Positions 35,151 to 58,330 of a stretch of DNA of 64,000 nt are shown piece after piece. The position numbers were made by a program, and so were the translations under genes. The stretch comes from Maribellus sp. YY47 (lineage in GTDB: Bacteria; Bacteroidota; Bacteroidia; Bacteroidales; Prolixibacteraceae), in contig NZ_JALGYW010000002.1 in assembly GCF_023111095.1 (NCBI RefSeq), positions 248,001-312,000 on the forward strand, given 5' to 3'. Below the pieces are notes generated by a model. It was given only the letters and a program-made list of their open reading frames with translations. It did no database searches and was not told the DNA's origin. Position 1 is the stretch's first letter, and each line of letters starts with the position of its first letter.

Positions 35151-36500
35151 CTAATAATAAACGAGCTCTGTTTCCAACGATTCTGCCTCCTGAAAAGTGA
35201 TTTCAAAATCCTCCAGTTCTTTTAAAATCGGTTCATAGATTTCAGGAATAATTGGAATATACATGCCTTTCAGGTTTAGCTGCCCGGTAAGTACCAGTTT
35301 TGCAGCAACGGCAAGCGGCAAACCAACTGTTTTCGCCATAGCCGTTTTGGTTGCGTTTTCACCGGTAACCACCAGCGAACTGGTTTTCCGATACAACTCA
35401 CCATCAGGCTCTTTTCGATAGACAAATTTGTGCCACATCACGATCATGTCTTTGTCGTCGGCTTGCAACTGCCACTTTTGTTTCAGAATATGTTCGAGCA
35501 CCTGCGCGGGTGTCGCTTTTTTTAAACCAATCGGCGTTTTATCAAAAATGCCCATCCATTTTAGTTTGTAAACGATCTCCGAATCCTGCGGAATATTCAG
35601 ATAATGAAAAAGCTTCAGTTCCACCGAATCGGTTGGATGATAAGGCAGAAATGAGTTGATGAATTCCCGGTACGTCATATTCTCGACGTTTTCAAGATAA
35701 TAGGAATCGTCGGTAGCGCCAAGCTGAACAAAAACATTCCAGGCCTTGCTGAATCCGGGTCTTCGGAGAGTTCCGCGATAAATAGTCGGAATTTCCTGAA
35801 GGTTGTATTTCTGAATATAGTACAGCGAATCGCGGTTGGCATAACCTTCAAACATCCCGAATTTTCCGAGATCAATCATTTCTGTTCGCCGAAACAAACG
35901 GTTATAAGGAATGTATTTGATTTTACCATTCTGAATAAAACGAGCCGGGCCTCCCTGTCCGGCCAACACCACATTTCGCGGATTCCAGCTGAATTTGTAA
36001 TTCCACGGGTTATCGTCCGATTCGGGCGCCACCAAACCGCCGGTGAACGATTCGAAGCACTCCATCACACAGCCGTCGTTTTTTAACTGGTTGATAATTT
36101 TCATAGCCGACATGTGATCGAGCCCCGGATCAAGTCCGCATTCGTTTAGAAAGAACAAGCCTTTTTCGTTTACTTCAGCCTCAAAGGCTTTCAGGTCTGC
36201 CGTTTCATAAGATGCGGTAAGCAGATTTTTTGAAAATTTCACACACGACTGTGCCACATATTTATGAAACCTTGCCGGGAGCAGCGAAATCACCAGATCG
36301 GCTTCTTTAACTTCAGCTTCGCGGGCAAACTCATCGTGTACATCCAGCAGGGCAAAAGCCAAACCAAGCGAGTGCACCAGTTCGCTTTCCTGGGTATCGG
36401 CAACTTTAATCCGCCAACTGTATTTCAATGCATTTTCAGCCAAATAAGTGAGCAGAAAGATACTGGATCTGCCGGCTCCGAAAATCAAAATGTTCTTCAT
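35151..36500 (-). CDS. Saccharopine dehydrogenase-like protein, divergent paralogue
   Basis: 449 residues with a Rossmann motif GAGRSS near residue 8 and the family blocks VISLLPARFH, LNECGLDPGLDHMSA and NPWNYKFSWNPR. Its closest relative in the window is the 443-residue protein at 44418-45746, but it departs from the Lys9-type sequence in the nucleotide loop (GAGRSSIF instead of GAGMVAKP) and in the TGGLVAPESDDNP block. In the saccharopine pathway such enzymes release glutamate and 2-aminoadipate semialdehyde. A related step on another amino acid, or the lysine-condensing step, is possible. It is the last gene of the catabolic cluster, 221 bp after the aldehyde dehydrogenase gene, a gap that holds a hairpin repeat. 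Confidence 0.85.
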   Translation of the reverse strand: MKNILIFGAGRSSIFLLTYLAENALKYSWRIKVADTQESELVHSLGLAFALLDVHDEFAREAEVKEADLVISLLPARFHKYVAQSCVKFSKNLLTASYETADLKAFEAEVNEKGLFFLNECGLDPGLDHMSAMKIINQLKNDGCVMECFESFTGGLVAPESDDNPWNYKFSWNPRNVVLAGQGGPARFIQNGKIKYIPYNRLFRRTEMIDLGKFGMFEGYANRDSLYYIQKYNLQEIPTIYRGTLRRPGFSKAWNVFVQLGATDDSYYLENVENMTYREFINSFLPYHPTDSVELKLFHYLNIPQDSEIVYKLKWMGIFDKTPIGLKKATPAQVLEHILKQKWQLQADDKDMIVMWHKFVYRKEPDGELYRKTSSLVVTGENATKTAMAKTVGLPLAVAAKLVLTGQLNLKGMYIPIIPEIYEPILKELEDFEITFQEAESLETELVYY

Positions 36501-36544
36501 TCCTTAATTCTCTGGTTTATATTTTCGTCTCAACGATCAACTTC

Positions 36545-36652
36545 AGCGCATTTCGGCGCAAAACAGGCCGGATTTTCAAACGGCCTTTTCCGGTGCGCCT
36601 ATTTTCATTCGCGCTTTCTACCCCGGGTTAAAACCTTGGGCTTACAGGGGTC
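36545..36652. repeat. Intercistronic hairpin repeat, copy 5 (partial)
   Basis: TTTCGGCGCAAAAC, GGTGCGCCTATTTTCATTCGC and CCCCGGGTTAAAACCTTGGG (36620-36639). The terminal AACTCCTACGGAGTT hairpin is missing. It lies between the ALDH7 and saccharopine dehydrogenase-like genes, so the family is not confined to the redox operon. Confidence 0.65.
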
Positions 36653-36721
36653 CATCATGCCAACTATCACTTTCTTGTTCAATCCGTTGAACTCTGAACC
36701 CTGAACTTTAAACTGATCTCT

Positions 36722-38269
36722 TTATACATTAAACTCGATCCCTTGTGCCAGGGGTAGCTCTGTACTATAATTAATGGTGTTTGTTTGACGGCGCATGTAC
36801 GCTTTCCAGGCGTCGGAACCCGATTCTCGACCGCCACCCGTATCTTTTTCGCCACCAAAAGCGCCGCCAATTTCGGCGCCCGAAGTACCGATGTTCACAT
36901 TGGCAATTCCACAATCAGAGCCTTCATGCGACAGAAATTTTTCGGTTTCCAGAATGTTCCGCGAGAAGATGGCCGAAGACAATCCCTGTGGCACATCGTT
37001 ATGAATTTGAATTGCTTCTTCCAGTGTTTTGTATTTGATTAAATAAAGGAGCGGCGCAAAGGTTTCTTCCTGTACAATTTCGTAATGATTTTCAACCTCA
37101 GCAATACATGGTTTTACATAAGTTCCGGTGCTGAAACCTTCTACTTCCAACACGTCGCCGCCTGTAATAATTTTTCCACCTTCGTGTTTCACACGTTCAA
37201 CCGAATTCAGAAAATTCTTAACCGCCCATTTATCTACCAGCGGGCCAACCAGCGTTTTAGAATCCAGCGCATGACCGATCGGCAGTTTCTGATAAATAGC
37301 CACCAGCTTTTGTTTGAACTCTTCATAAACCGACTCGTGCAAAATAATTCGCCGGGTAGAAGTACAACGTTGTCCGCAGGTTCCAACCGCACCAAAAACC
37401 ACTGCACGAAGTGCCATTTCCATATCGGCATCCGGCGTGATGATGATGGCATTGTTTCCGCCCAGTTCCAGAATCGAACGTCCTAGGCGCTCGCCCACCA
37501 AACGCCCGACTTTCTGCCCGATCCGCGTAGAACCGGTAAACGAAACCAGCGGAATATTCCGGTCGGAAAACATGGTATCGCCAAGCACTTTTGACTCGGC
37601 TGCCACCAGGCTCAGTACACCTTCCGGCACATCGTTTTCTTTTAGCACATTGGCTACAATTTTATGGACAGCCACCGCGCACAAATACACTTTCGAAGAG
37701 GGCTTCCAAACCACCACATCACCAGCTATCAGTGCAATCATGGCATTCCATGCCCACACTGCCACCGGAAAGTTAAATGCAGAAACCACCCCTACAATTC
37801 CAAGTGGATGATACTGATCGTACATGCGATGCCGGGCTCTTTCGGAATGCATGGTGAAGCCATACAACTGCCGCGATTGACCCACTGCAAAGTCGCAGAT
37901 ATCGATCATTTCCTGTACTTCGCCCAAACCTTCCTGAAGGATTTTACCCATTTCGTACGACACCAGTTTACCCAGCGGTTCTTTGTATTTCCTTAGCTCC
38001 AATCCTATTTGCCGGACAATTTCACCTCGTTTAGGTGCCGGAACCATCCGCCATGTTTTAAAGGCCTCTTTGGCGGTTTCAATCACTTCCTGGTAATCTT
38101 CAATGCCGCATTGCTGCACTCCGGCAATCAGTTTTCCGTCAGAAGGCGAATACGATTCCATAAATTTCCCCGTGGTTGATTTCCACTTTGTTCCCGTGCA
38201 AACTCCCGGGTTCACCGACTCAATTCCAAGTTCTTTTAATACTGTTTTAAAATCTATTTCCTGTGTCAT
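36722..38269 (-). CDS. Antiquitin-type aldehyde dehydrogenase (2-aminoadipate semialdehyde dehydrogenase, ALDH7)
   Basis: 515 residues, family length. The catalytic region reads FTGSTRIGQKVG, LELGGNNAIII (general base Glu) and GTCGQRCTSTRR with the nucleophile Cys. The C-terminal block CGIANVNIGTSGAEIGGAFG, then GGEKDTGGGRESGSDAWK and INYSTELPLAQGI is diagnostic of ALDH7A1/antiquitin, which oxidises 2-aminoadipate semialdehyde (or its cyclic imine) to 2-aminoadipate in lysine breakdown. The neighbouring saccharopine dehydrogenase-like genes supply that substrate in known pathways, which supports the call. The nearby repeat at 38331-38390 separates it from the thiolase gene. Confidence 0.93.
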   Translation of the reverse strand: MTQEIDFKTVLKELGIESVNPGVCTGTKWKSTTGKFMESYSPSDGKLIAGVQQCGIEDYQEVIETAKEAFKTWRMVPAPKRGEIVRQIGLELRKYKEPLGKLVSYEMGKILQEGLGEVQEMIDICDFAVGQSRQLYGFTMHSERARHRMYDQYHPLGIVGVVSAFNFPVAVWAWNAMIALIAGDVVVWKPSSKVYLCAVAVHKIVANVLKENDVPEGVLSLVAAESKVLGDTMFSDRNIPLVSFTGSTRIGQKVGRLVGERLGRSILELGGNNAIIITPDADMEMALRAVVFGAVGTCGQRCTSTRRIILHESVYEEFKQKLVAIYQKLPIGHALDSKTLVGPLVDKWAVKNFLNSVERVKHEGGKIITGGDVLEVEGFSTGTYVKPCIAEVENHYEIVQEETFAPLLYLIKYKTLEEAIQIHNDVPQGLSSAIFSRNILETEKFLSHEGSDCGIANVNIGTSGAEIGGAFGGEKDTGGGRESGSDAWKAYMRRQTNTINYSTELPLAQGIEFNV

Positions 38270-38330
38270 TTTTCTATTTTTTTGATTGATTTTCTATTTC
38301 AAAACCTCAAATAATGAGTTAAACCCAAAT

Positions 38331-38390
38331 TACCCCTAACTCCCCCAAAGGGAGACCTTTTCTCCCCTCTGGGGAGATAAAGAGGGGTCA
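38331..38390. repeat. Bacteroidota CCCCTAACTCCCC-type hairpin repeat
   Basis: ACCCCTAACTCCCCCAAAGG and TCTCCCCTCTGGGGAGA with a closing AGAGGGGT. The outer ACCCCT/AGGGGT arms pair as well. It sits in the 166-bp gap between the thiolase and ALDH7 genes. Such elements are widespread between genes in this phylum. Confidence 0.65.
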
Positions 38391-38435
38391 GATTGTTAAA
38401 TCCAAAGGCATTCTTCATTATTTTTTCTCTATATC

Positions 38436-39638
38436 TTAAACTTTTTCGATGACCATTGAGATTCCTTGTCCAACTCCAATGCACATGGTGCAAAGCGCAT
38501 ATTTTGAACGAGTGTGCTGAAGTTGATGAAACGCGGTAGTTACCAGTCGTGCCCCCGACATACCCAGCGGATGCCCCAATGCGATCGCTCCACCCAAGGG
38601 ATTGATTCGCGGATCGAGATCATCCAGTCCCCACTGACGGATACAGGCCAGCGATTGCGCGGCAAATGCCTCATTCAGCTCAATAATATCCATTTGCCCC
38701 ATTGACAAACTCAGTAGTTTGAACAGTTTTTCGGTTGCGGGAACAGGCCCAATTCCCATGATCCTTGGAGGTACCCCAGCCGACTGGGCTCCCAAAATTC
38801 GCGCTTTCGGAACCAGGTTGAAACGCTTAACAGCTTCTGCTGAAGCAATAATCAAGGCCGCTGCTCCGTCGTTTATTCCCGAGGCATTTCCTGCAGTTAC
38901 CGTTCCGTCTGCCCCCATCACCGGTTTTAGCGAAGCCAGTTTCTCAGGCGAAGTCAGTCTTGGATGTTCGTCTGTATTCACGACAATGGGATCGCCTTTT
39001 TGCTGCGGAATAACAACCGGAACAATCTCGTGAGCCAACGCACCGTTCTTTTGTGCATCGTCGGCTTTTTGCTGACTGTGATGCGCAAAACGGTCCTGAT
39101 CCTCCCGGCTTATCTTGAATTCTTCGGCCAGGTTTTCAGCCGTGCAAATCAGCGCATCGGTTCCAAATTGTTTCTGAAATTCCGGGTTGATAAAACGCCA
39201 GCCGATAGTTGAGTCGAAAATCTCGGCATCCCGTGAAAACGCGCTGGTGGGTTTGGGCATCACAAAAGGTGAACGCGACATGCTTTCCACGCCGCCAGCT
39301 ATCACCAGTTCTGCCTCACCTGCCCGGATAGCACGAGCTGCCATAGCCACCGCTTCCATTCCCGAGCCACACAAGCGGTTTACGGTTACTCCGGGCACCG
39401 ATTCCGGAAATCCGGCCAGCAGAAGTCCCATTCGAGCTACATTGCGGTTGTCTTCTCCCGCCTGATTGGCGCATCCAAAAATCACATCGTCGATCGCCGA
39501 TTTATCCAGGTTTGGATTTCGCTCCAAAATGGCTTTTAAAGGAATTGCTGCAAGATCGTCGGCACGTACCGATGATAAAGCTCCTCCGTATTTACCAACC
39601 GGAGTACGAATGGCATCGCATATAAAAACTTCTTTCAT
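38436..39638 (-). CDS. pcaF: 3-oxoadipyl-CoA thiolase-type acetyl-CoA acyltransferase (PcaF/PaaJ-like)
   Basis: 400 residues. Thiolase catalytic residues are seen in NRLCGSGMEA (nucleophile Cys), GGAIALGHPLG (His) and CTMCIGVGQG (second Cys). Blocks that mark the PcaF/PaaJ branch are GGALSSVRADDLAAIPLKA, CANQAGEDNRNVARMGLLLA and IGWRFINPEFQKQFG. Those enzymes split 3-oxoadipyl-CoA to succinyl-CoA and acetyl-CoA. No aromatic-ring pathway genes lie nearby, so the substrate probably comes from another source, and PcaI/PcaJ are encoded 1.4 kb upstream in the same operon. The 41-bp gap to the aminotransferase gene indicates co-transcription. Confidence 0.88.
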   Translation of the reverse strand: MKEVFICDAIRTPVGKYGGALSSVRADDLAAIPLKAILERNPNLDKSAIDDVIFGCANQAGEDNRNVARMGLLLAGFPESVPGVTVNRLCGSGMEAVAMAARAIRAGEAELVIAGGVESMSRSPFVMPKPTSAFSRDAEIFDSTIGWRFINPEFQKQFGTDALICTAENLAEEFKISREDQDRFAHHSQQKADDAQKNGALAHEIVPVVIPQQKGDPIVVNTDEHPRLTSPEKLASLKPVMGADGTVTAGNASGINDGAAALIIASAEAVKRFNLVPKARILGAQSAGVPPRIMGIGPVPATEKLFKLLSLSMGQMDIIELNEAFAAQSLACIRQWGLDDLDPRINPLGGAIALGHPLGMSGARLVTTAFHQLQHTRSKYALCTMCIGVGQGISMVIEKV

Positions 39639-39648
39639 TTTTTTAATT

Positions 39649-39680
39649 AGCTACGAGCCCCGAGCCACTAGCTTCAAGCT
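39649..39680. repeat. Second copy of the CTACGAGCC dispersed repeat
   Basis: CTACGAGCCCCGAGCCACTAG, reverse complement of the core at 7510-7530. It lies in the short gap between the thiolase and aminotransferase genes. Confidence 0.6.
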
Positions 39681-41023
39681 CAATTTTTATTTATAGTATT
39701 CAGTTTATCAATTTTTGGTTTGAAGGCTTTGAAAGCCCTTAACAAACCTTCTGTCAAACGATCAATCTCCTTTTGCGCCATAACTGTGGAAAGCATGCAC
39801 GAAAAAGTATTGATCATTAAAATCTTTTCCTCATAATACATGTAGTCGAGCAGCTCTTTCACGACGCTGCCAGCTTCTTTCGACAGATAAGCTTCACGAT
39901 AAGTGTTCGGAGAAGTTGAACGCAAATGCATTCGAAACATAGATCCGGCGCCTGTTACCGATACCGGCACATCGGCCAGTTGAATGGCTTCGCGTATCTG
40001 ACCGACTGCTTTTTGAGTCAGTGCATTCAGTCTTATCACCGCTTTTTTGTCGAAATACTGCATGGCCTTGTAGCCGGCAGTCATGGTAATCGGATTGGCA
40101 GAAAAAGTTCCGGAATGCGGCAACAACAGATTCTTTTCGTGCGGATCAAAAACCTTCATCACATCTGCTCTTCCGGCTACCGCACCCACCGGAAAACCTC
40201 CGCCAATGATCTTCCCGAGCGAAGTAAGATCGGGCTTTACGGAATAATCTTCCTGTGCACCGCCATAGTTTACCCGGAAAGTGATCACCTCATCAAACAC
40301 CAGCAAAGCATCGTTTTTTCGCGTCCAGTTGTAAATGGCTTCAATAAAATCATTGGCTCCGCGCATCAATCCAACGCGGTGTGGAACCGGATCGATTATC
40401 ACACAGGCGATTTCATCGGCATGCCGGTCAAGAATTGTGAGTGTTCGCTCCGCATCGTTATAAGGGAAAATGATCACATCGCGCGATACACTTTTCGGTG
40501 TTCCGTGTGCCAGCAAAACACTGGCCGGATGATTAATGTCGCCCCAATTGGTGGGATTGGCCGTCTGGCTTACTTCTGCAAAATCATAGGTTCCGTGGTA
40601 GGTTCCCTCAGCTTTGGCAATCTTTGACCGCCCGGTAAATGCCCTCGATGCTTTAATCATCGCCATTACCGCCTCGGTTCCGGAATTTACAAAACGAATG
40701 CGTTCAAAGCTTTCCACCCGTTTGATCATGTGTTTCGCATAAGCCACTTCAATTTCGGAAGCCAGCGTATAAGCTGTTCCCTTTTTCAACTGTTCGATGA
40801 CGGCATCGATCACCGGTGGAAAAGAATGCCCGTGAATCAAGGCTGCCATATTGTTGGCAAAGTCAATTCGTGCGGTTCCCTCAATATCGGTAATGTAACA
40901 TCCCGAAGCTACATTGGCGTAATTCGGGAAAGGCTCGTGGTAAACCGTATTCCGGCTTACACCGCCAGCCAGAACCTTCTGCGCCTGTTTATACAGTTTT
41001 TCGCTGTTACTCTTTTTTGTCAT
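39680..41023 (-). CDS. Class III PLP aminotransferase (glutamate-semialdehyde-aminomutase / beta-aminotransferase-like)
   Basis: 447 residues. PLP-binding features are FVNSGTEAVMAMIKAS, LLVFDEVITFRVNYGG and the Schiff-base Lys in LTSLGKIIGGGFPVGA. The overall pattern is that of glutamate-1-semialdehyde aminomutase relatives, a group that includes beta-amino acid aminotransferases. The heme-pathway HemL is unlikely because the gene sits in a catabolic operon and the sequence departs from HemL. Possible roles here are moving the 3-amino group of 3-aminoadipate (or beta-lysine) to 2-oxoglutarate, or an omega-amino group. The start overlaps the end of pcaJ by 17 bp, so translation is coupled. Confidence 0.85.
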   Translation of the reverse strand: MTKKSNSEKLYKQAQKVLAGGVSRNTVYHEPFPNYANVASGCYITDIEGTARIDFANNMAALIHGHSFPPVIDAVIEQLKKGTAYTLASEIEVAYAKHMIKRVESFERIRFVNSGTEAVMAMIKASRAFTGRSKIAKAEGTYHGTYDFAEVSQTANPTNWGDINHPASVLLAHGTPKSVSRDVIIFPYNDAERTLTILDRHADEIACVIIDPVPHRVGLMRGANDFIEAIYNWTRKNDALLVFDEVITFRVNYGGAQEDYSVKPDLTSLGKIIGGGFPVGAVAGRADVMKVFDPHEKNLLLPHSGTFSANPITMTAGYKAMQYFDKKAVIRLNALTQKAVGQIREAIQLADVPVSVTGAGSMFRMHLRSTSPNTYREAYLSKEAGSVVKELLDYMYYEEKILMINTFSCMLSTVMAQKEIDRLTEGLLRAFKAFKPKIDKLNTINKN

Positions 41024-41693
41024 GACCTTCCATTTCTTGAATTAGATGAATTTCTGCGCCGGTTTGCTGTTGCAGCGATTCGAATGTCACCCCCGGTGCC
41101 ATCTCTCTTACAAATAATTTTTCATTTTGAACATCGATAATCGCCAGATCGGTATAAATGCGGCTTACTACCTTTTTCCCCGTTAAAGGATAATTGCATT
41201 CCTTAACAATTTTTGCCTCGCCCGATTTGGTGCAATGCTTTGTGATCACAAAAACTGAAGGCACTCCGGCCACCAGGTCCATCGCGCCACCCACTGCCGG
41301 AATATCCTCCGGATTACCGGTCGACCAGTTCGCAAGATCACCTTCCTGCGAAACCTGGTAAGCCCCAAGTACACAAATATCGATGTGCCCGCCGCGGATC
41401 ATCGCAAAACTATCGGCATGATGAAAATAGGCAGCTCCCGGAATGGCAGTAACGTATTTTTTACCTGCATTCACCAGTTCGGGATCCTCACTTCCCGATG
41501 CAGCCACCGCGCCCATTCCAAGCAGCCCGTTTTCGGTGTGATAAATTACCTCGCGGCCTTCAGGAATAAAGCCGGCCACCATTTCAGGCATTCCAATTCC
41601 CAAATTCACATAAGCGCCGTCGTGAATATCTCGGGCTACATTCTGAGCCATTTCCGTAAGGCTCCACCCCTCTTTTTGTGCTGCTAATTCCAT
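41007..41693 (-). CDS. pcaJ: 3-oxoacid CoA-transferase subunit B (PcaJ-like)
   Basis: 228 residues. The catalytic Glu is in YHTENGLLGMG. Blocks MAQNVARDIHDGAYVNLGIG, AYFHHADSFAMIRGGHIDIC, LGAYQVSQEGDLANWSTG and AVGGAMDLVAG match the PcaJ / ScoB group, with PcaJ the closer by eye. With the PcaI-like subunit it moves CoA from succinyl-CoA to a 3-oxoacid such as 3-oxoadipate. It overlaps the subunit A gene by 10 bp and the aminotransferase gene by 17 bp. ScoAB (acetoacetate) specificity cannot be excluded from sequence alone. Confidence 0.9.
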   Translation of the reverse strand: MELAAQKEGWSLTEMAQNVARDIHDGAYVNLGIGMPEMVAGFIPEGREVIYHTENGLLGMGAVAASGSEDPELVNAGKKYVTAIPGAAYFHHADSFAMIRGGHIDICVLGAYQVSQEGDLANWSTGNPEDIPAVGGAMDLVAGVPSVFVITKHCTKSGEAKIVKECNYPLTGKKVVSRIYTDLAIIDVQNEKLFVREMAPGVTFESLQQQTGAEIHLIQEMEGHDKKE

Positions 41694-42400
41694 GGATACC
41701 TCCTTTCTTCGGCTACCAGTTTTGATTCGTCAGCCGGATTGGAAACTTCCACAATCCGGTGCACAAAAATGCCGGGTGTAACCACACATTCGGGATCAAT
41801 CTCTCCCAACTCCACTATTTTACGTGCCTGAACGATCGTGGTTTTGGCCGCCATACACATCACCGGTCCGAAATTGCGGGCGGTTTTATTGTAAACCAGG
41901 TTCCCGTATTTATCCGCCATATGACATTTCACCAATGAGAAATCGGCTTTTATGGCATGTTCCAACACATAATCGCGGCCATTAAATCTCCGGACTTCTT
42001 TTCCTTCCGCCAGCGGCGTATTCACCGAAGTTGGTGTATAAAAAGCAGGAATTCCGGCACCGCCTGCACGAATACGTTCGGCCAATGTGCCTTGCGGCAC
42101 CAGCTCGAGTTCGATTTCACCCCGGCGGTACATTTCCGGAAAAACCACAGAAATGGTCGTTCGGGGAAAAGAACAGATGATTTTGCTTACCTGGCGGTTT
42201 TCAATCAAAGCTGCAAGTCCCACATGTCCGCTACCTGCATTATTGCTGACAACGGTGAGATTTTTTGCCCTCTGATCCACCAAAGCATGAATCAGCTCTA
42301 CCGGACTACCGGCCTCCCCAAATCCGCTGATCATTACCGTGGCCCCGTCAAAAATACCTGCCACGGCTTCTGCTGCCGATTCAACGATTTTATTGATCAT
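41684..42400 (-). CDS. pcaI: 3-oxoacid CoA-transferase subunit A (PcaI-like)
   Basis: 238 residues. Blocks VMISGFGEAGSPVELIHAL, NNAGSGHVGLAALIENRQV, SKIICSFPRTTISVVFPEMY and NKTARNFGPVMCMAAKTTIV are typical of PcaI, and the C-terminus has VVTPGIFVHRIVEV. It forms a dimer of subunits with PcaJ. Overlaps: 11 bp with the kamA-like gene upstream and 10 bp with pcaJ downstream, so the four genes are translated in one run. The combination with a PcaF-type thiolase points to 3-oxoadipate as the compound activated. Confidence 0.9.
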   Translation of the reverse strand: MINKIVESAAEAVAGIFDGATVMISGFGEAGSPVELIHALVDQRAKNLTVVSNNAGSGHVGLAALIENRQVSKIICSFPRTTISVVFPEMYRRGEIELELVPQGTLAERIRAGGAGIPAFYTPTSVNTPLAEGKEVRRFNGRDYVLEHAIKADFSLVKCHMADKYGNLVYNKTARNFGPVMCMAAKTTIVQARKIVELGEIDPECVVTPGIFVHRIVEVSNPADESKLVAEERRYPWN

Positions 42401-43976
42401 GATCTGCTGCCAATTTCATTTCTTTCTCCAAAGCTTTCGAAAGCTGCTCTTCAATTTTTACCAGTTCATCTTCGTAGAAATACCTGTCGCTTCCATACGG
42501 AACCAACTTTTCGATCGTATTTTCCTGTTCGTCGTATTTGGCGAAGAATGTTGTGTCCATCCACTCCATGTTTCGTGCTTCATTGAATTTCAGCGCAAAA
42601 ACCTTTTCGCCATTAATCTCGGCAGTTCCCATCAACGAAGTTTTTCCCGCCGAAGAAGTCATCGTAATGTAACGTGAAGGCCTGTTGATCGAAGCCAGGC
42701 TCCGGTATACTTTATTGAATATCTTTGAAATATCAGCCAGCGGCGCTGTAAAATAATGGTGTTCTCCGGTTGGCCGAGCGCAGTACATCGAGTGAAAACC
42801 GATGCCCAGCATAGCCAGCACATTCCCCAAGTCAATCCAGTTTTGGGCCGATCGGTCAATGTCTACTTTCCCGTTTTCGTCGTAAAACAAGCTGATGTGA
42901 TTCATGATCGGACTTTGGCTCTTTACCGCCACTCCGTATTTTTTTAAACGCCGGATGGCTGCCACAGAAGCAGGATTCATCACATCGTGAGGTGTGGAAA
43001 TGTGTGCCACCCAAACGGCCTGAATTCCGTTTTCCGTAAGTTTTTGCAGCAATTCGAGAATCCGCTTAAAGGCATCGGTCAGCAACCATTCGGGATGAAA
43101 GTTGATGGCCCGAGAACCTATCCGCACCGTGCGAATGTGCATCAGTTCGGGATCGTCGATCAAAGGCTGCACATACTCCAGCAATCTTTCGTAAGGAATA
43201 TAACCGCCGTCGCCGCCTGTTATCAGAATATCGCTCACTTCCTTATGGCGTTTCAGGTATTCGTGCACCTGCGAAACTTCGCGCTGTACAAACATATCTT
43301 CGTCGCCGCGCACCTGTGCATGCCGGAAACAATAGGTACAAAACGAAAAACAGGTTTGCGTGGTCTTGTCCAAAATAAGCTTTACTGGCGGATATTTGTG
43401 CTGGCTGCCTTCCAGAATTTCCAGATGTCCCTCGTCGTTGATGTACCAGGGTTTGTTCAGCTTTTGTTTTCCGTCGTGCGGATTGGTTTTTTGCATGTAA
43501 GCCTCCACCACACGTTTTCTTGCTTCCTCATCAGGAGCATCGGCATATTTCTTTACTTCTTCGGATGAAATCATTCCCGGCTGCGGGAAAACCAACTGGT
43601 AATTGGAGTCGGTCTCATAATTCTTCCAATCGATGGTATTCAGCACGTAGCGGGTAGCCATAAACCGGTAGACTTCGATAAAAAACTCACGGTCTTTCAG
43701 ATGGCTCAATTCAACTCCTTGTTGCTTCAATTTCTGAACAATTTCACGAAATCCGTTTAATCCCGAATAATGCTGTTTATCGTTAAAAATAACCTCGTCT
43801 TCATAAAAAAAACCGGAATACTTCGGGTAATTGTTATGAAGTCTCTGAATTAGTCCCGGAGGTAATAACTTTTCGTTTTCAATGGTACGAACAGACTCGG
43901 AACCGAGCTGATACCTTTTCATCATTTGCTGAATATCAGACGGTTCAACCTTTGTTTTAAATTCCTTTACGTTCAT
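42390..43976 (-). CDS. KamA-family radical SAM 2,3-aminomutase, divergent
   Basis: 528 residues, longer than lysine 2,3-aminomutase (about 416), with extra N- and C-terminal parts. The radical SAM motif CFSFCTYC (CX3CX2C) is followed by FRHAQVRGDED, and the PLP Lys appears as SSAGKTSLMG where the classical enzyme has PGGGGK. The two aspartates that hold the lysine side-chain amino group in clostridial KamA appear to be missing: the block is CARPTGEHHYF instead of CDLVPGVEHF, and the residue before the PLP loop is not Asp. So lysine is an unlikely substrate; another 2-amino acid such as 2-aminoadipate fits the cluster better. First gene of the five-gene minus-strand unit. Confidence 0.85.
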   Translation of the reverse strand: MNVKEFKTKVEPSDIQQMMKRYQLGSESVRTIENEKLLPPGLIQRLHNNYPKYSGFFYEDEVIFNDKQHYSGLNGFREIVQKLKQQGVELSHLKDREFFIEVYRFMATRYVLNTIDWKNYETDSNYQLVFPQPGMISSEEVKKYADAPDEEARKRVVEAYMQKTNPHDGKQKLNKPWYINDEGHLEILEGSQHKYPPVKLILDKTTQTCFSFCTYCFRHAQVRGDEDMFVQREVSQVHEYLKRHKEVSDILITGGDGGYIPYERLLEYVQPLIDDPELMHIRTVRIGSRAINFHPEWLLTDAFKRILELLQKLTENGIQAVWVAHISTPHDVMNPASVAAIRRLKKYGVAVKSQSPIMNHISLFYDENGKVDIDRSAQNWIDLGNVLAMLGIGFHSMYCARPTGEHHYFTAPLADISKIFNKVYRSLASINRPSRYITMTSSAGKTSLMGTAEINGEKVFALKFNEARNMEWMDTTFFAKYDEQENTIEKLVPYGSDRYFYEDELVKIEEQLSKALEKEMKLAADHDQ

Positions 43977-44417
43977 GCAGATTTAAGTTCTGATTATGAT
44001 TTATATGCTGAATAATGGCAGGCGACTACCACCCGCAGGTTATGTAAACCCCGGTTACCGAATCCGGCGATCCCGTTCATGAATCAATCAGAAACTATCA
44101 GGAAATGACACCGGCATTCAAAAACCGGAAGTTGATTAAAGCAGAATAAATGTAGTAGCTGCGGCTGCAGCTAATGTGAAACCGAATCGTCGTCGAGACA
44201 CTCTGGCATCCCGGGATAAAAAAACACCGGACAATAATACGATTGTACCATAGCCTTAAAGTTAACAAATGTGATTGAGACAAATTCTGACAACAAACAT
44301 ATTTCATAACATCTATACAAATCAAAAATTTTCACCACCTTTAAAGCAGAAAGCTGACAACTACTCCTGGTAAAACCGAACAACTGGTTGACTAGTGATG
44401 TGACAAGGAAATTTAAA
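43977..44417. other. Divergent regulatory region between kamA-like and saccharopine dehydrogenase genes
   Basis: 441 bp without a gene. It holds the 18-bp inverted repeat TAGCTGCGGCTGCAGCTA at 44156-44173 (7-bp arms, GGCT loop) and a smaller GTAAACCCCGGTTAC hairpin near 44043-44057. No TAnnTTTG box is clear on either strand and I could not fold a lysine riboswitch. Its position between the two arms of the catabolic cluster makes it the likely control point. Confidence 0.5.
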
Positions 44418-45746
44418 ATGAAGAAAGTATTGTTACTGGGCGCCGGAATGGTAGCCAAACCTTTGGTCGACTATTTATTAGACAATCAAATTGAATTAAC
44501 CATAGCCACCCGAACGGTAGCAAAGGCAGTAAAACTGATTAAAGACCGAAGCCACGGAAAAGCTGTTTCGTGGACCGTAGACGACATGCAGGCATTGAGT
44601 ATGCTGATTGCCGACCATGATCTGGTGGTTAGTCTGCTTCCCTACACTTATCATGTTGCAGTGGGCAAGCTGTGTGTAAAGCACAAAAAAAATATGGTAA
44701 CTACCTCGTATGTTTCGGATAAGATGAAAGCGCTGGATAAAGCAGCCCGCGAAGCTGGAGTTCTTTTACTAAACGAGATTGGAGTAGATCCGGGTTTTGA
44801 CCACATGACAGCCATGCGTATTATTGATAAAGTGCAGGCAGAGGGGGGAAAAGTAAAGCAATTTTATTCGTTGTGTGGCGCATTGGCTGCTCCGGAAGAA
44901 GCAGACAATCCTTTTCATTACAAATTTACCTGGTCGCCACGGGGCGTTATCATGGCTGGTAACAACAGCGCCAAATATTTAAAAAACGGTGCAACGGTAG
45001 AGATTTCATCCGACGATTTGTTTAAAAATCCGTTAATTATCGATTTCCCCGAAGTGGGTGAAATGGAAGTATATCCCAACCGCGATTCATTGTCGTACAT
45101 CAACAAATATGGTCTTGCAGGTATTGAAACCATGTACCGGGGTACTTTTCGTTATAAAAACTGGTGCGAAATAATGAATGCATTAAAAGCGCTGGATATG
45201 CTGAGCTACGACCGGAAAAGCTTTGAAGGAAAGACCTACCGCAAAATAATGGCGCGCCGGCTTCAGGTTTATCCGGCGAATATCAAGGAAAAAGTTGCAG
45301 AACGTCTGGGACTCGAAGCCGAAAGTCCGGCCATTGTTGCCATGGAGTGGCTCGGCCTGTTTAGCGACGATCTGGTTCGGATGAACGAAGGCTCCAATTT
45401 TGATCTGACCACCGACCTGATGCTTGAAAAAATGATGCTTCCGGACGGAGCCCGTGACATGGTAATTATGTTACATGCTTTTGGGGTTGAAAATGCCGAC
45501 GGAAGCAAACAGGTTGTCAAATCCAGTCTGCTTGATTTTGCTACAAAAGAAGACACTTCGATTGCACGTACCGTTGGACTTCCGGCCGGGATTGCCGTAA
45601 AAATGATCCTCGATGGAAAATTCAGCGAAACCGGAGTTCATATCCCAAATACCAAAAGCATTTACGAGCCTGTTCTCAACGAACTACAAAAGCTTGGAAT
45701 TGCGATGAAAGAACAATGGGGCCTACCCGAAAGTGAAATGTTGTAA
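44418..45746 (+). CDS. Saccharopine dehydrogenase, NADP+, glutamate-forming (Lys9-like)
   Basis: 443 residues from the ATG at 44418; a TTG ten codons upstream is in frame but the family sequence starts with MKKVLLLGAG. The Rossmann loop GAGMVAKP, VVSLLPYTYHVAVGKLC, LNEIGVDPGFDHMTAM, CGALAAPEEADNPFHYKFTW and YPNRDSLSYI match the eukaryotic-type Lys9/SDH domain closely. The enzyme splits saccharopine to glutamate and 2-aminoadipate semialdehyde, the substrate of the ALDH7 protein of this cluster. It is transcribed away from the kamA-like operon. The lysine-ketoglutarate reductase of the first step was not found in this window. Confidence 0.92.
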   Translation: MKKVLLLGAGMVAKPLVDYLLDNQIELTIATRTVAKAVKLIKDRSHGKAVSWTVDDMQALSMLIADHDLVVSLLPYTYHVAVGKLCVKHKKNMVTTSYVSDKMKALDKAAREAGVLLLNEIGVDPGFDHMTAMRIIDKVQAEGGKVKQFYSLCGALAAPEEADNPFHYKFTWSPRGVIMAGNNSAKYLKNGATVEISSDDLFKNPLIIDFPEVGEMEVYPNRDSLSYINKYGLAGIETMYRGTFRYKNWCEIMNALKALDMLSYDRKSFEGKTYRKIMARRLQVYPANIKEKVAERLGLEAESPAIVAMEWLGLFSDDLVRMNEGSNFDLTTDLMLEKMMLPDGARDMVIMLHAFGVENADGSKQVVKSSLLDFATKEDTSIARTVGLPAGIAVKMILDGKFSETGVHIPNTKSIYEPVLNELQKLGIAMKEQWGLPESEML

Positions 45747-46416: not shown

Positions 46417-47127
46417 TTAAGACACCAGCAATAAAAAGCTGGCAAGCAGTGTGACTGCAATATTGATTTTTCGGAAAGTATGAACCGAGATCGAAGTATT
46501 CAGGCGCTTCCCTAAAATGGTTCCCAGCAAAAGAATGGGAACAAAAACCAAAGCCATTTTTAAAGACTGCAGTGTCAGCAAGCCGGTTTGACTATAACCT
46601 GCGATGGCAATAACTGCAGTAACAATACTAAACCAGGCAAATATCTCGCGAAACTCGCGGTTATCTACTTTTGAAATATTCAGGAATAAAGCCAGCGGCG
46701 GGCCACTTACCGAAATAGCACCGGTTATAAAACCGATAACTGCCCCTGCCAGAGAAAAAGCAATGGGTGGTAATTTCACTTCGGGAAGTTTTCGCCACGA
46801 AAAAAGAGTTAGAACAATAAAAACCGCCCCGGTAATATGTACCAGCATCTGTTCCGAAACGGTTTTGAGCGTTACAACACCTAAAATCGTAAACAGTCCG
46901 CCACTAATGATTAGCGACTTATACGGACCACTGACCAGTATGTGTTGTTTCTTTTGCATAACGATGAAGAGAGAAGCGATCAGGTTACAGATCATTAATA
47001 CCGGAATAATCTCGCGGGGCGAATACCACATCAAAAGGATGGGAAACGATATCAACGCAAACCCAAAACCGGTTACTCCCTTTAGCAAACTTGAAAAAAT
47101 AATAACCAGAATAACCCAAATATTCAT
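46417..47127 (-). CDS. TauE/SafE-family sulfite/anion exporter
   Basis: 236 residues with about seven or eight hydrophobic helices and the conserved opening SSLLKGVTGFGFALISFPIL. The internal block IGFITGAISVSGPPLALFLN carries the family SGPP motif. Members export sulfite, sulfoacetate or related anions. It lies 18 bp after a YeiH-type gene, so the two probably share a transcript and a substrate class. Substrate not provable here. Confidence 0.85.
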   Translation of the reverse strand: MNIWVILVIIFSSLLKGVTGFGFALISFPILLMWYSPREIIPVLMICNLIASLFIVMQKKQHILVSGPYKSLIISGGLFTILGVVTLKTVSEQMLVHITGAVFIVLTLFSWRKLPEVKLPPIAFSLAGAVIGFITGAISVSGPPLALFLNISKVDNREFREIFAWFSIVTAVIAIAGYSQTGLLTLQSLKMALVFVPILLLGTILGKRLNTSISVHTFRKINIAVTLLASFLLLVS

Positions 47128-47145
47128 ACCATCAATTTTGAAGAT

Positions 47146-48069
47146 TTAAAAATTTAGAACCCACAAGGAAGAAACAGCGGTTATTACCCACAGCGAAATT
47201 CCCAATGCAAAGCTTCTGACTCCCGATTGTTTCATCTCCTGTATCGAAATATTGGAACCGATCAGAAAAAGGGCGACCATCATTCCGCGTTTTCCCAACC
47301 AGCTAAAATGTGAGTAGCTTGGACTAAATCCGGGAAATACGTTGGCAAAAACAATGGCCAGCACAAAAAACAGGATGAACCAGGGAAACTGAATCGATTT
47401 TCGGGTGCTGTTTTTATTCAACACCGCGACAACAATGGAAAGCGGGATGATCCAAAGCGCCCGGATGAGTTTTACAGTGGTGGCAATTTGCAGTGCCTTT
47501 TCGCCATAAGTTGCGCCCGCTCCTACCACAGAACTGGTGTCGTGAATGGCAATGGCCGCCCAGTTTCCAAACGTTTCCTGGCTCAGTCCAAGTTTCCATC
47601 CGATAAACGGAAACAGCATCAAAGCCAGTCCATTCAAAACAAATACAACAATCAGCGCAAATGAGTTCTGATAATCTTTGCTGTTCAATATCGGACTGAT
47701 AGCGGCGATGGCACTTCCGCCACAAATGGCAGTACCGGCAGCAATCAGCACGGTAATGTTTTTCTCCACTTTGAATAGTTTTCCCAGCAAAAGCCCGGTT
47801 GCCATCACCAGCGTTACGGAAATTGCTGTTTCTACAAAACCACTTTTCGAAGCCGTGATCACTTCCCCGAGGTTCATTCCAAAGCCCATCAGCACAATGG
47901 AAATCTGCAAAACCCTGGCTGTGTACTTGTGCGCACTATCCGATTTTATTCCCAACAGCGAAAGCACAATGCCTGTTCCGAGTGCCATTACAGGCGAAAC
48001 AAAAGGCAAAAAGCAAACAAAAATGAGAACACGGTATAACCCATTTAATTTTTTGACTTCGATATTCAT
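47146..48069 (-). CDS. YeiH-family (putative sulfate exporter) membrane protein
   Basis: 307 residues, about nine or ten helices. Features include AGTAICGGSAIAAISPILNS and WAAIAIHDTSSVVGAGATYG, the two most conserved blocks of the family. In Escherichia coli yeiH is controlled by the LysR protein YeiE, and related genes are linked to sulfite stress and cysteine. A LysR regulator gene lies 75 bp upstream on the same strand, and a TauE/SafE gene is 18 bp downstream, so a sulfite-responsive unit is a reasonable inference. Confidence 0.88.
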   Translation of the reverse strand: MNIEVKKLNGLYRVLIFVCFLPFVSPVMALGTGIVLSLLGIKSDSAHKYTARVLQISIVLMGFGMNLGEVITASKSGFVETAISVTLVMATGLLLGKLFKVEKNITVLIAAGTAICGGSAIAAISPILNSKDYQNSFALIVVFVLNGLALMLFPFIGWKLGLSQETFGNWAAIAIHDTSSVVGAGATYGEKALQIATTVKLIRALWIIPLSIVVAVLNKNSTRKSIQFPWFILFFVLAIVFANVFPGFSPSYSHFSWLGKRGMMVALFLIGSNISIQEMKQSGVRSFALGISLWVITAVSSLWVLNF

Positions 48070-48144
48070 ACCAACTTCATTTGATGCGACAAAGGTATCT
48101 TCACATCATAATCAAGTCAAATACTAAATAACTATACTGAATAA

Positions 48145-49032
48145 CTAAAAGTTATACGAAAGCAGGAAGCTTTCAAATAATTCCACCTGTTTACTTTCGT
48201 ATCCCTGGCGAAGTGCAATTCTGAATTTTCGGGGAATGGAAATGCCCGTTACGTTGAGTTTTATCAGGCTGTTCAGATACAGTTCGGTGGTAGCTGCCTT
48301 TTCAGAAATAACCGCTATTCCGTCAAAATCCTGCAGGAAACTTTTGATGGATTCGGTGCTGCCCAGATGTATGAGTGTGTTTAATCCGTCAAAATCAACA
48401 TTTTGCTTTTCGAGTGTGCGTTTTACCACTTCCAATGTACCCGAACCGTGTTCGCGAAGTACAATCGGAAACTTTGTAAAATCCTCAACACTGATATTTT
48501 TCCGCTTGGCATACACGCTTTTCGCACCCGTGACAACAATTAGTTCGTCGTCAAGAAAACTCTTGTACCGGATTCCTGCCTGTGCCGATTCGTTCTCCAC
48601 CAATGCCAGATCAACCTTGTTCTCCAGCAGTAATTGTTCCATCTCAAACGAGTTGCCATTTACCAGGTGGATCATGATTTTCGGATAGCGCTTATGAAAC
48701 GAAGCAATAACTTTTGGAATAACATATTGCGAAATGGTAGAACTTGCGCCGATGACAAATTCTCCGGAAACCGTGTTGTTCATCTGCCCGATTTCAAAAG
48801 TGAGATCGCGGTAAAGCTGTTCGATTTTTTTGAGTGAATTGTACACCGTTTTCCCGGCTCGCGTGAGGTAAACCTTATTTCCTTTCCGCTCAAACAAGCT
48901 AATGTTGTATTTGCTTTCCAGCTCTTTAATATGTTTGGTTACAGCCGGCTGACTAATGTGCAACTCTTCGGCAGCCTTTGAAAAGCTCAGGTTTTCTGCA
49001 ACAGCTATAAAAACAGTGTCTCTGTAATCCAT
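48145..49032 (-). CDS. LysR-family transcriptional regulator (CysL/YeiE-like)
   Basis: 295 residues. The N-terminal HTH reads AENLSFSKAAEELHISQPAV followed by TKHIKELE, and the effector domain (about 88-295) has FVIGASSTISQYVIPKVIAS, a periplasmic-binding-protein-like fold. The gene is just upstream of the YeiH and TauE-type exporter genes, on the same strand, where LysR regulators are usually divergent. The 75-bp gap to yeiH has no terminator. It probably controls the exporters. Confidence 0.9.
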   Translation of the reverse strand: MDYRDTVFIAVAENLSFSKAAEELHISQPAVTKHIKELESKYNISLFERKGNKVYLTRAGKTVYNSLKKIEQLYRDLTFEIGQMNNTVSGEFVIGASSTISQYVIPKVIASFHKRYPKIMIHLVNGNSFEMEQLLLENKVDLALVENESAQAGIRYKSFLDDELIVVTGAKSVYAKRKNISVEDFTKFPIVLREHGSGTLEVVKRTLEKQNVDFDGLNTLIHLGSTESIKSFLQDFDGIAVISEKAATTELYLNSLIKLNVTGISIPRKFRIALRQGYESKQVELFESFLLSYNF

Positions 49033-55326: not shown

Positions 55327-57117
55327 CTAATAACGTTCGCGTTTGGTATATTTCGTGTGTAATAAGTGATGCGACACTTCTCCCAACGGCTCTTTCAAGA
55401 AATCTTTATAGAGTTTGTGAACCTCCGGGTTTTCGTGAGATTTCCGTATTGGAAGCCCGCTGTCTTCGGCGTAAATAGCTTCAGCACGTTTTTGCCTGAT
55501 TTCGGCATTGGTTGGAATTGGTTGCCCTCCTCCTCCCAGGCATCCACCCGGACAGGCCATAAATTCAATAAAATGGTAATCGGCACTTCCGTTCTTCACC
55601 GAATCCATAACACTTTTTGCATTGATCAGGCCATGAGCAACCGCACATTTTAGCTCAACCCCATCCAGGAAAGCCCAGTCTTCCAATGGCTTCTCAATTT
55701 TCACAGAAGCTTCACGAACACCGTCCATCCCTCGCACTGGAATAATATTCAAATTTTCGAACGGCACTTCTCTGCCGGTAACAATCTCGTAAGCAGTCCT
55801 TAGCGCTGCTTCCATTACTCCGCCGGTTGCTCCAAAAATCACTGCTGCACCGCTTGACTCTCCCATTAAACGATCATATTTTGCCGGCTCCAGCTTTTTA
55901 AAGTCTAAACCGGCTTGTTTGATCAGAATGGCCAGTTCGCGGGTGGTCAATACATAATCCACATCGCGATAACCGCTGTCGTGCATTTCAGGGCGAAAAG
56001 CCTCATACTTTTTTGCGGTACACGGCATTATTGAAACCGACACTATTTTATCCGGCTCCAGGTTTCTGGCTTTGGCATAATAGGTTTTTGCCAGTGCACC
56101 AAACATCTGTTGCGGCGATTTACAGGTCGACAAATGTTTCAGATGATCGGGATACATATGCTCGATGTATTTGATCCATCCGGGCGAACAGGAAGTAGCC
56201 ATCGGTAGTTTCACTGTTTCATCTTTATCCACCAACGCTTTTTTCAAACGGGTCAACAGCTCGGTTCCTTCCTCCATAATGGTGAGGTCGGCGGTAAAAT
56301 CGGTATCGAGTACCGAGTCGAATCCCAATCGCTTTAATGCAGCGACCATCTTTCCCGTCACGCTTTCGCCGGGAGGCATGCCCAATTCTTCTCCCAAACC
56401 AACCCGCACCGCAGGAGCAGTCTGAACAATAACATGAAGATTGGGATTGGCAATGGCTTCCCATACTTCCTCAATGTAGTTCTTTTCGACCAGCGCACCG
56501 GTAGGACAATGGTTCACACATTGCCCGCAATTGGTGCAAACCACATCGCGCATCGCTTTTTCAAAGAAAGTAGTGATCTTCATTTGATCACCTTTGTGGG
56601 CCACAGTCAGCGCATTTACGCCCTGCAGCTCAGCACAGGTGCGCACACAACGCTGGCAGCGGATGCACTTGCTGTCATCTTTAATAATCGACGGCGAGTA
56701 CATATCGATCGAAAACTTCTTGAGCGGAACCAATTCGATAAATTCCTGTGTCATGATTTTGTATTCCGACGCCAGTGTTTGAAGTTCACAATTTCCGTTT
56801 CGGTAACATTTGGTACAATCTGCATTATGCTCCGCCAGCAAAAGCTCAATGATTTGTTTCCTTGAATTTCGAACTTTCAGGCTGTTGGTCAGGATCTCCA
56901 TCCCTTCTTCGCATGGCGTGGCGCAAGCCGCCGACAATCGTTTCTGCCCCACCACCTCGACCACACATACCCGGCAATTTCCGGCCACGCACAAATCTTT
57001 GTGATAACACAAAGTAGGAACTTTTATCCCCTGTGATTCAGCGGCTTCCAATATCGTTTTTCCCGCAAATATTTCAACGGGATATCCATTGATGGTTATA
57101 TTGACTTTTTTACTCAT
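55327..57117 (-). CDS. hydA: [FeFe] hydrogenase catalytic subunit of a NADH-linked trimeric enzyme
   Basis: 596 residues. Order: [2Fe-2S] domain with CYHKDLCVAGNCRVC, His-Cys3 [4Fe-4S] site HNADCTKCYRNGNC, two [4Fe-4S] motifs (CIRCQRCVRTC, CTNCGQCVNHCP), then the H-cluster domain with L1 TSCSPGWIKYIE, L2 MPCTAKKYEA and L3 FMACPGGCLGGGGQP. It reduces protons or oxidises H2. The genes for the NuoF- and NuoE-like subunits lie directly upstream (18 bp and 10 bp gaps), so this is the HydABC type, active in the cytosol. No hydEFG maturase genes are in the window. Confidence 0.96.
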   Translation of the reverse strand: MSKKVNITINGYPVEIFAGKTILEAAESQGIKVPTLCYHKDLCVAGNCRVCVVEVVGQKRLSAACATPCEEGMEILTNSLKVRNSRKQIIELLLAEHNADCTKCYRNGNCELQTLASEYKIMTQEFIELVPLKKFSIDMYSPSIIKDDSKCIRCQRCVRTCAELQGVNALTVAHKGDQMKITTFFEKAMRDVVCTNCGQCVNHCPTGALVEKNYIEEVWEAIANPNLHVIVQTAPAVRVGLGEELGMPPGESVTGKMVAALKRLGFDSVLDTDFTADLTIMEEGTELLTRLKKALVDKDETVKLPMATSCSPGWIKYIEHMYPDHLKHLSTCKSPQQMFGALAKTYYAKARNLEPDKIVSVSIMPCTAKKYEAFRPEMHDSGYRDVDYVLTTRELAILIKQAGLDFKKLEPAKYDRLMGESSGAAVIFGATGGVMEAALRTAYEIVTGREVPFENLNIIPVRGMDGVREASVKIEKPLEDWAFLDGVELKCAVAHGLINAKSVMDSVKNGSADYHFIEFMACPGGCLGGGGQPIPTNAEIRQKRAEAIYAEDSGLPIRKSHENPEVHKLYKDFLKEPLGEVSHHLLHTKYTKRERY

Positions 57118-57135
57118 TTTAATGTTCCGTTTTGG

Positions 57136-58320: not shown

Positions 58321-58330
58321 GGATTTAATT

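Follow-up and report, generated by a model that had tools for sequence, protein, structure and literature searches.

We analyzed a 64,000-nucleotide stretch of the genome of Maribellus sp. YY47 (contig NZ_JALGYW010000002.1, positions 248,001 to 312,000; here termed the window) and found that a cluster of eight genes at 35151 to 45746 probably encodes a pathway for lysine degradation, in which lysine would be converted via 3-oxoadipate into succinyl-CoA and acetyl-CoA. The central enzyme, which we named KamX, is a divergent KamA-type radical S-adenosylmethionine (SAM)/pyridoxal 5'-phosphate (PLP) aminomutase (42390 to 43976, minus strand) and a putative L-2-aminoadipate 2,3-aminomutase. We assign this reading a probability of roughly 0.8. 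The steps would be as follows: (i) lysine and 2-oxoglutarate give saccharopine through a lysine-ketoglutarate reductase (LKR) encoded elsewhere in the genome; (ii) a Lys9-type saccharopine dehydrogenase (SDH) of the NADP+, L-glutamate-forming type (44418 to 45746, plus strand, divergent from kamX), with a paralogue (35151 to 36500, minus strand), yields 2-aminoadipate semialdehyde and glutamate; (iii) ALDH7, an L-piperideine-6-carboxylate/2-aminoadipate semialdehyde dehydrogenase (36722 to 38269, minus strand), forms L-2-aminoadipate; (iv) KamX transfers the amino group of C2 onto C3, generating 3-aminoadipate; (v) a class III aminotransferase (39680 to 41023, minus strand) produces 3-oxoadipate; (vi) a CoA-transferase with a PcaI/ScoA-type subunit A (41684 to 42400, minus strand) and a PcaJ/ScoB-type subunit B (41007 to 41693, minus strand), a candidate succinyl-CoA:3-oxoadipate CoA-transferase, forms 3-oxoadipyl-CoA; and (vii) a PcaF/PaaJ-type 3-oxoadipyl-CoA thiolase (38436 to 39638, minus strand) releases succinyl-CoA and acetyl-CoA. 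2-Aminoadipate is the proposed substrate of KamX because 2,3-migration followed by transamination turns this alpha-amino acid into 3-oxoadipate. The same route had been put forward in an earlier reading of this stretch (the original prediction), and it is now supported by gene co-occurrence, by the thiolase type, and by an Asp-to-Arg exchange in KamX.

All eight genes are open reading frames (ORFs) at the places where the original prediction had located them, and most of them have matching family scores in comparisons of NCBIfam and Pfam profile scores with the model cut-offs. The Lys9-type gene starts with an ATG at 44418, the earliest possible start of the same ORF being 44388. The four upstream minus-strand genes, for which overlaps of 10 to 17 bp had been noted, overlap by 11 bp (kamX/pcaI), 10 bp (pcaI/pcaJ), and 17 bp (pcaJ/aminotransferase gene). 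These are followed by gaps of 41 bp (aminotransferase to thiolase), 166 bp (thiolase to ALDH7), and 221 bp (ALDH7 to the second SDH). KamX is 94% identical to its counterparts in Maribellus luteus and Maribellus sp. CM-23, and the host is Prolixibacteraceae-like.

A search of 84,980 species genomes returned 137 relatives of KamX, of which the best 80 loci were examined. The genes for KamX, PcaI, PcaJ, the aminotransferase, and PcaF were found on one strand and in this order in all 58 loci whose sequence continues for at least 4.5 kb beyond kamX. The 22 loci with a shorter downstream stretch include 5 complete and 17 incomplete arrangements, the latter keeping the order as far as it is visible. 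Since the order is retained in 58/58 loci with sufficient room, the cluster represents more than a chance arrangement. Eleven phylum labels are represented among the KamX loci (79 in the KamX tree), including Bacteroidota, Pseudomonadota (Shewanella, Pseudoalteromonas, Photobacterium, and Motiliproteus), Ignavibacteriota, Balneolota, and Cloacimonadota. KamX is nonetheless rare: orthologues were detected in 2 of the 296 genomes of a phylum sample (the window genome and G070) and in 3 of the 117 genomes of a Cloacimonadota sample. In the tree, the Pseudomonadota and the Cloacimonadota each form one clade; the Bacteroidota, Ignavibacteriota, and Balneolota do not. As metagenome bins may be assigned to the wrong phylum, we do not claim horizontal transfer from this tree. 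We propose that these five genes form a portable module and that the supply of 2-aminoadipate varies between carriers, which would use LKR and SDH, lysine 6-aminotransferase (LAT), or possibly, in anaerobes, an aldehyde:ferredoxin oxidoreductase (AFOR) replacing ALDH7. That a lysine route via 3-aminoadipate, comprising a new radical SAM enzyme and this portable module, is present under the 11 phylum labels appears likely. A LysR-type regulator gene was seen near kamX in 11 gammaproteobacterial loci (e.g., L110:8858-9709), divergently oriented in the 4 viewed, and a gene for an XRE-like helix-turn-helix protein in 9 other loci (e.g., L053:6590-7159), upstream of kamX in 5 viewed.

The thiolase of the window reached 677 bits with TIGR02430, the pcaF equivalog model (cut-off, 597). 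Its first match in the Protein Data Bank (PDB) is 8gqh, entitled "Thiolase," and its second is the beta-ketoadipyl-CoA thiolase 6pca (E value, 6.5e-163). The thiolases of 10 of 10 further diverse loci, 3 of them gammaproteobacterial, scored 643 to 689 bits, so that the PcaF cut-off was passed by all 11 thiolases tested. The thiolase type points to 3-oxoadipate as the acid that this module would process. The two CoA-transferase subunits exceeded the cut-offs of TIGR02429 (PcaI type; 361 bits, cut-off 128.5) and TIGR02428 (PcaJ type; 300 bits, cut-off 243.6), and no other PF01144 matches were found in the window genome; the closest structures in the PDB bear the name succinyl-CoA:3-ketoacid transferase. 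The aminotransferase contains an Aminotran_3 domain and is hemL-like, and an identity as HemL was rejected at 334.1 bits with TIGR00713 (cut-off, 527.3). Its best PDB match is 6k8h ("Aminotransferase class-III"), and the lower-ranked matches include the beta-phenylalanine aminotransferase 4ao9 and the beta-transaminase 2yku. Beta-amino acid transaminases are thus among the solved relatives of this putative 3-aminoadipate transaminase, but its best match is not one of them.

The original prediction had placed KamX in the KamA family, and this held for the residues and the fold but not for the family score, since KamX reached 78 bits with TIGR00238 (cut-off, 199.2). In the NCBIfam scan, it remained far below the cut-offs for lysine, glutamate, and arginine aminomutases, with 62.5 bits for the lysine 2,3-aminomutase model TIGR03820 (cut-off, 525.4) and 52.4 bits for the glutamate 2,3-aminomutase model TIGR04368 (cut-off, 650), and no cut-off of the KamA family or of a Pfam radical SAM model was passed. 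We therefore refer to KamX as a divergent KamA relative; by its sequence, it represents a lineage within the KamA radical SAM/PLP family for which we found no earlier description. It comprises 528 residues, versus 434 in the lysine 2,3-aminomutase of the window genome. An AlphaFold2 model had a mean predicted local distance difference test (pLDDT) score of 85.3, with values below 50 at residues 167 to 171, 217 to 221, and 223 to 227 of the construct without Met1. The best Foldseek match of this model is the lysine 2,3-aminomutase 2a5h (E value, 7e-14; TM scores, 0.52/0.65; root mean square deviation, 8.5), and the modeled overall fold is of KamA type.

To describe the active site, we aligned 45 KamX orthologues, using the lysine 2,3-aminomutase of the window genome for comparison and counting Met1 in the residue numbers of KamX. 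The cysteines of the CX3CX2C cluster motif (C209, C213, and C216), the PLP lysine K445, and R218, which aligns with the Arg that binds the carboxylate in lysine 2,3-aminomutase, are invariant in 45/45 sequences, their roles being taken from the Clostridium subterminale enzyme; R435 is likewise invariant. In the C. subterminale enzyme, the ammonium group of lysine is held by Asp293 and Asp330. The column of the first is filled by R401 in 45/45 KamX orthologues, at a site that is ungapped between two flanking anchor residues, and that of the second by T438 (Thr in 34 and Ser in 11 of the 45). Glutamate 2,3-aminomutase has Lys and Asn at these two positions. Because Arg and Thr/Ser replace the two ammonium-binding Asp residues, the alignment suggests that the side-chain pocket has shifted from cation binding toward suiting an anion. 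A second KamA-like family (L038:9612-10964, minus strand, with relatives in L009 to L036) is approximately 31 to 37% identical to KamX; its member in the window genome, with 151 bits versus the KamA cut-off of 199, is unlinked to the kamX operon, and its substrate is presumably acidic.

The alternative named in the original prediction, in which KamX would act on lysine and the saccharopine-type enzymes would handle beta-lysine and its derivatives before thiolysis, was rejected as the leading interpretation on the basis of residues, family scores, and thiolase type, and we consider it extremely unlikely. KamX is distantly related to lysine 2,3-aminomutase, and another six-carbon 3-oxo acid might likewise suit the CoA-transferase and the thiolase. 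However, both ammonium-binding Asp columns are altered, the TIGR03820 score is far too low, and the thiolases are of the 3-oxoadipyl-CoA type; moreover, LKR is present in the genome and is linked to kamX in two Cloacimonadota. In addition, the window genome encodes a separate lysine 2,3-aminomutase (771 bits; cut-off, 525) adjoining AblB (316 bits; cut-off, 205), a pair known to make an osmolyte, and KamX is thus not required for beta-lysine. A second alternative is that KamX functions as a glutamate 2,3-aminomutase on saccharopine-derived glutamate, with the module making 3-oxoglutaryl-CoA or serving osmolyte synthesis. The pocket Arg would fit any acidic side chain, and few of the gammaproteobacterial carriers have the lysine genes that were searched. 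Residues, family scores, and thiolase type nevertheless excluded glutamate as our main interpretation and render it very unlikely: KamX scored 52 versus 650 bits with TIGR04368, the thiolases, including the three gammaproteobacterial ones tested, pass the 3-oxoadipyl-CoA cut-off, and a CoA-transferase and a thiolase are ill-suited to osmolyte synthesis.

The saccharopine-pathway entry that the proposed 3-oxoadipate route needs (LKR, SDH, and ALDH7) is complete in the window genome. ALDH7 scored 800 bits with NF050084 (L-piperidine-6-carboxylate dehydrogenase; cut-off, 730). The Lys9-type protein matches Sacchrp_dh_C (256 bits) and the NADP domain (83 bits), and its PDB matches include the saccharopine reductase 1e5l (E value, 6e-94) and AASS 5l78 (E value, 2e-80). 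The second SDH matches PF16653 (Sacchrp_dh_C; 265 bits) and PF03435 (NADP domain; 35 bits). The two proteins belong to two separate clades (support, 100/100), both of which contain members adjoining LKR in other genomes. The original prediction had noted that LKR is not in the cluster, and we located it elsewhere in the same genome (G000:C16:17634-18842); its best PDB match is the mitochondrial alpha-aminoadipic semialdehyde synthase 8dda (E value, 8e-42).

Of the 80 loci, 13 have saccharopine-pathway genes (Lys9, ALDH7, or the second SDH) at a distance of up to 10 kb from kamX, 11 from Prolixibacteraceae or near kin (Bacteroidota) and 2 from Cloacimonadota; LKR is near kamX in the latter two loci only (2/80). 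In one of these (L097), a single strand carries the genes for Lys9, LKR, KamX, PcaI, PcaJ, the aminotransferase, PcaF, and a permease-like protein, and the other (L082) has the same order except that LKR and kamX are separated by an additional ORF of 680 codons. The stretch with the third Cloacimonadota kamX (G441) measures 3.6 kb and shows no lysine gene, and no LKR was found in its genome. The KamX-negative Cloacimonadota show a different arrangement. In 10 of 10 loci read (L220 to L222 and L224 to L230, which gave the top LKR matches among 42 genomes), Lys9-LKR is followed by a CitD-like start, mostly a CitD-CitE fusion. In longer stretches from eight genomes (L231 to L238), CitF comes next, and an isocitrate/homoisocitrate-type dehydrogenase is present in seven of the eight; L231 and L233 have LKR without Lys9, and two aconitase-family proteins come after in L231, L233, and L235. 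The L231 copies were family scanned, the remaining citrate-lyase-like genes being recognized by eye; the scores in L231 were 271 bits for citE (cut-off, 443), 484 for citF (501), 270 for the homoisocitrate dehydrogenase AksF (500), and 401 and 485 for the aconitase/isopropylmalate dehydratase large subunit family (385). Lysine breakdown in these strains could proceed through the alpha-aminoadipate pathway in reverse, with a homocitrate-lyase-like final step, although this is less certain. The term "homocitrate lyase" was found in no paper of the open PubMed Central (PMC) set. The Lys9 proteins of two KamX-positive and two KamX-negative Cloacimonadota are intermingled in the tree. The presence of two unlike downstream routes at the same place behind Lys9-LKR argues for a role of the KamX module, too, in removing what saccharopine cleavage yields. 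A third neighborhood of the saccharopine pair was seen in L239 and L240 of the Cloacimonadota sample, which have neither the KamX module nor citrate-lyase-like genes beside LKR; here, a class III aminotransferase-like gene (24 to 28% identity to that of the window) lies ahead of LKR-Lys9, and apparent glycine-cleavage genes come after the pair.

These neighborhoods also bear on a third alternative, namely, that 2-aminoadipate is transaminated to 2-oxoadipate and enters the classical glutaryl-CoA route, with the module degrading some other beta-amino or 3-oxo acid and its adjacency to the lysine genes being coincidental. Such a scenario would agree with the small number of linked loci and with the presence of LKR in 55 of the 72 KamX-negative genomes of the window's class, which indicates that LKR does not need KamX. 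We regard it as very unlikely, since the linkage arises in two distant settings, the Cloacimonadota module occupies the place where another downstream route follows Lys9-LKR, and the thiolase type indicates 3-oxoadipate.

The co-occurrence that the original prediction had suggested as a check was borne out by the five-gene order, by the linked loci, and by the distribution of LKR. The latter was assessed in 51 distinct KamX-positive genomes (50 from the 80 loci plus that of the window), of which 11 are gammaproteobacterial and 40 are not. LKR was called at an E value of at most 1e-20, with the LKR of the window genome as the query for carriers and a Cloacimonadota LKR for KamX-negative genomes; full-length SDH domains were called at 190 bits or more, a threshold set in this analysis. 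Among the 40 nongammaproteobacterial carriers, 36 have LKR, 33 have a full-length SDH domain, and 27 have ALDH7 above the cut-off. Of the 36 carriers with LKR, 17 have it directly next to a full-length SDH; LKR is beside an SDH fragment in G313 and adjoins ALDH7 in G070, G305, and G324. Two of the four carriers without LKR (G319 and G334) have LAT above the cut-off, which offers another way to 2-aminoadipate semialdehyde. An AFOR-type gene was present in 12 of the 13 carriers lacking ALDH7 versus 10 of the other 27 (P = 0.002); AFOR may stand in for ALDH7 or may only mark anaerobes. In comparison, 76 of the 294 KamX-negative genomes of the phylum sample have LKR (Fisher's P = 3e-15 versus 36/40, not corrected for phylogeny), 21 of 222 outside and 55 of 72 inside the window's class. 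We gave up this enrichment as proof on its own, because LKR is common in KamX-negative genomes. By these counts, LKR is close to a rule in nongammaproteobacterial carriers, and KamX appears to be one of several continuations after LKR.

A number of observations weigh against the proposed lysine route. (i) The Asp-to-Arg change of KamX recurs in 29/29 rows of the second KamA-like family. The pocket Arg therefore marks an acidic group at most, and the argument for 2-aminoadipate as the specific substrate comes from the thiolase type and the linkage instead. (ii) The residue argument rests on an alignment, with residue numbers and roles assumed for the lysine and glutamate aminomutases. (iii) Sequence does not separate PcaIJ from acetoacetate transferases, both being covered by the models. 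(iv) Physical linkage to lysine genes was observed in 13/80 loci only. (v) LKR is not significantly enriched relative to KamX-negative genomes of the window's own class (36/40 versus 55/72; P = 0.08) or within the Cloacimonadota (2/3 KamX-positive versus 42/114 KamX-negative genomes; P = 0.56), and it is present in 21 of 28 KamX-negative genomes, mostly of the window's class, that were searched alongside the carriers. (vi) Two of the 40 nongammaproteobacterial carriers (G310 and G315) have neither LKR nor LAT above the cut-off, and 13 of the 40 lack ALDH7 above the cut-off, G335 among them having a partial match. (vii) Among the 11 gammaproteobacterial carriers, LKR was detected at the above threshold in none, LAT above the cut-off in none, and ALDH7 above the cut-off in one. 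As LKR and ALDH7 are mostly absent, the substrate or the 2-aminoadipate supply of these strains is not accounted for.

A pair of LYS1-like and SDH-like genes is present in 2 of the 11 gammaproteobacterial carriers, and the other 9 are without any LKR-type gene searched. In Shewanella and Pseudoalteromonas (L187:5939-10732 and L188:8226-12953), LYS1-like and SDH-like genes adjoin a gene for a phosphotransferase-class III aminotransferase fusion, which contains APH and Aminotran_3 domains in the L187 copy. This fusion resembles hydroxylysine kinase plus phospholyase, and it might also yield 2-aminoadipate semialdehyde. An aldehyde dehydrogenase near kamX in three Shewanella loci was not counted as ALDH7 (23 to 25% identity).

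The proposed route combines elements of several known systems. It shares LKR, SDH, and ALDH7 with the saccharopine pathway of animals and plants (LKR/SDH and ALDH7A1) up to 2-aminoadipate. The textbook route then continues via 2-oxoadipate, glutaryl-CoA, and crotonyl-CoA, whereas in the Maribellus cluster an aminomutase would lead to 3-oxoadipate. A 3-oxoadipyl-CoA thiolase above the equivalog cut-off and a pcaI/pcaJ-type transferase are shared with the beta-ketoadipate (PcaIJF) and phenylacetate (PaaJ) pathways, but here 3-oxoadipate would derive from an amino acid rather than from aromatics, and the genes are in one operon with an aminomutase and an aminotransferase. KamX has the radical SAM cysteines, PLP Lys, carboxylate Arg, and fold of the lysine and glutamate 2,3-aminomutases, from which it differs by scores far below the matched KamA-family cut-offs and by the Asp-to-Arg and Asp-to-Thr/Ser exchanges at the side-chain site. 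The clostridial lysine fermentation (KamA-KamDE-Kdd-Kce-Kal) also begins with a KamA-type enzyme and ends with CoA-transferase/thiolase-type steps, both of which have counterparts in the cluster; the eight genes of the cluster, to which this comparison was confined, match no kamDE, kdd, kce, or kal.

In the open PMC set, which does not include subscription journals, no paper was found that reports 3-aminoadipate (beta-aminoadipate) among the intermediates of lysine degradation or describes an aminomutase leading to 3-oxoadipate, and a search for the aminomutase residues gave no match. A title cited in PMC9854754 prints "beta-aminoadipic acid" as the product of lysine 6-aminotransferase, which is probably a misprint of alpha; PMC8706239 concerns other aminomutases, and both are incidental matches.

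If correct, the proposed route would be a new catabolic pathway for a universal amino acid, with all six carbons kept as succinyl-CoA and acetyl-CoA, and would add a new substrate to those of the radical SAM aminomutases. Through a portable module, it would connect the degradation of an amino acid with the beta-ketoadipate pathway, and it would provide a function that can be tested for a conserved operon of five genes, the first of which exceeds none of the cut-offs for the KamA family or for Pfam radical SAM models. It may also explain why PcaIJF-like genes are found beside an aminomutase gene, and it suggests enzymes for the production of 3-aminoadipate or 3-oxoadipate from lysine.

Two further groups of genes were noted in the window. 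Beside the cluster, at 46417 to 49032 on the minus strand, are genes for a TauE-type exporter, a YeiH-type putative sulfate exporter (101 bits, below the cut-off), and a LysR regulator. At 55330 to 58822, also on the minus strand, three genes encode an [FeFe] hydrogenase of the NADH-linked type, with Fe_hyd_lg_C/SSU, NuoF-like, and NuoE-like subunits.

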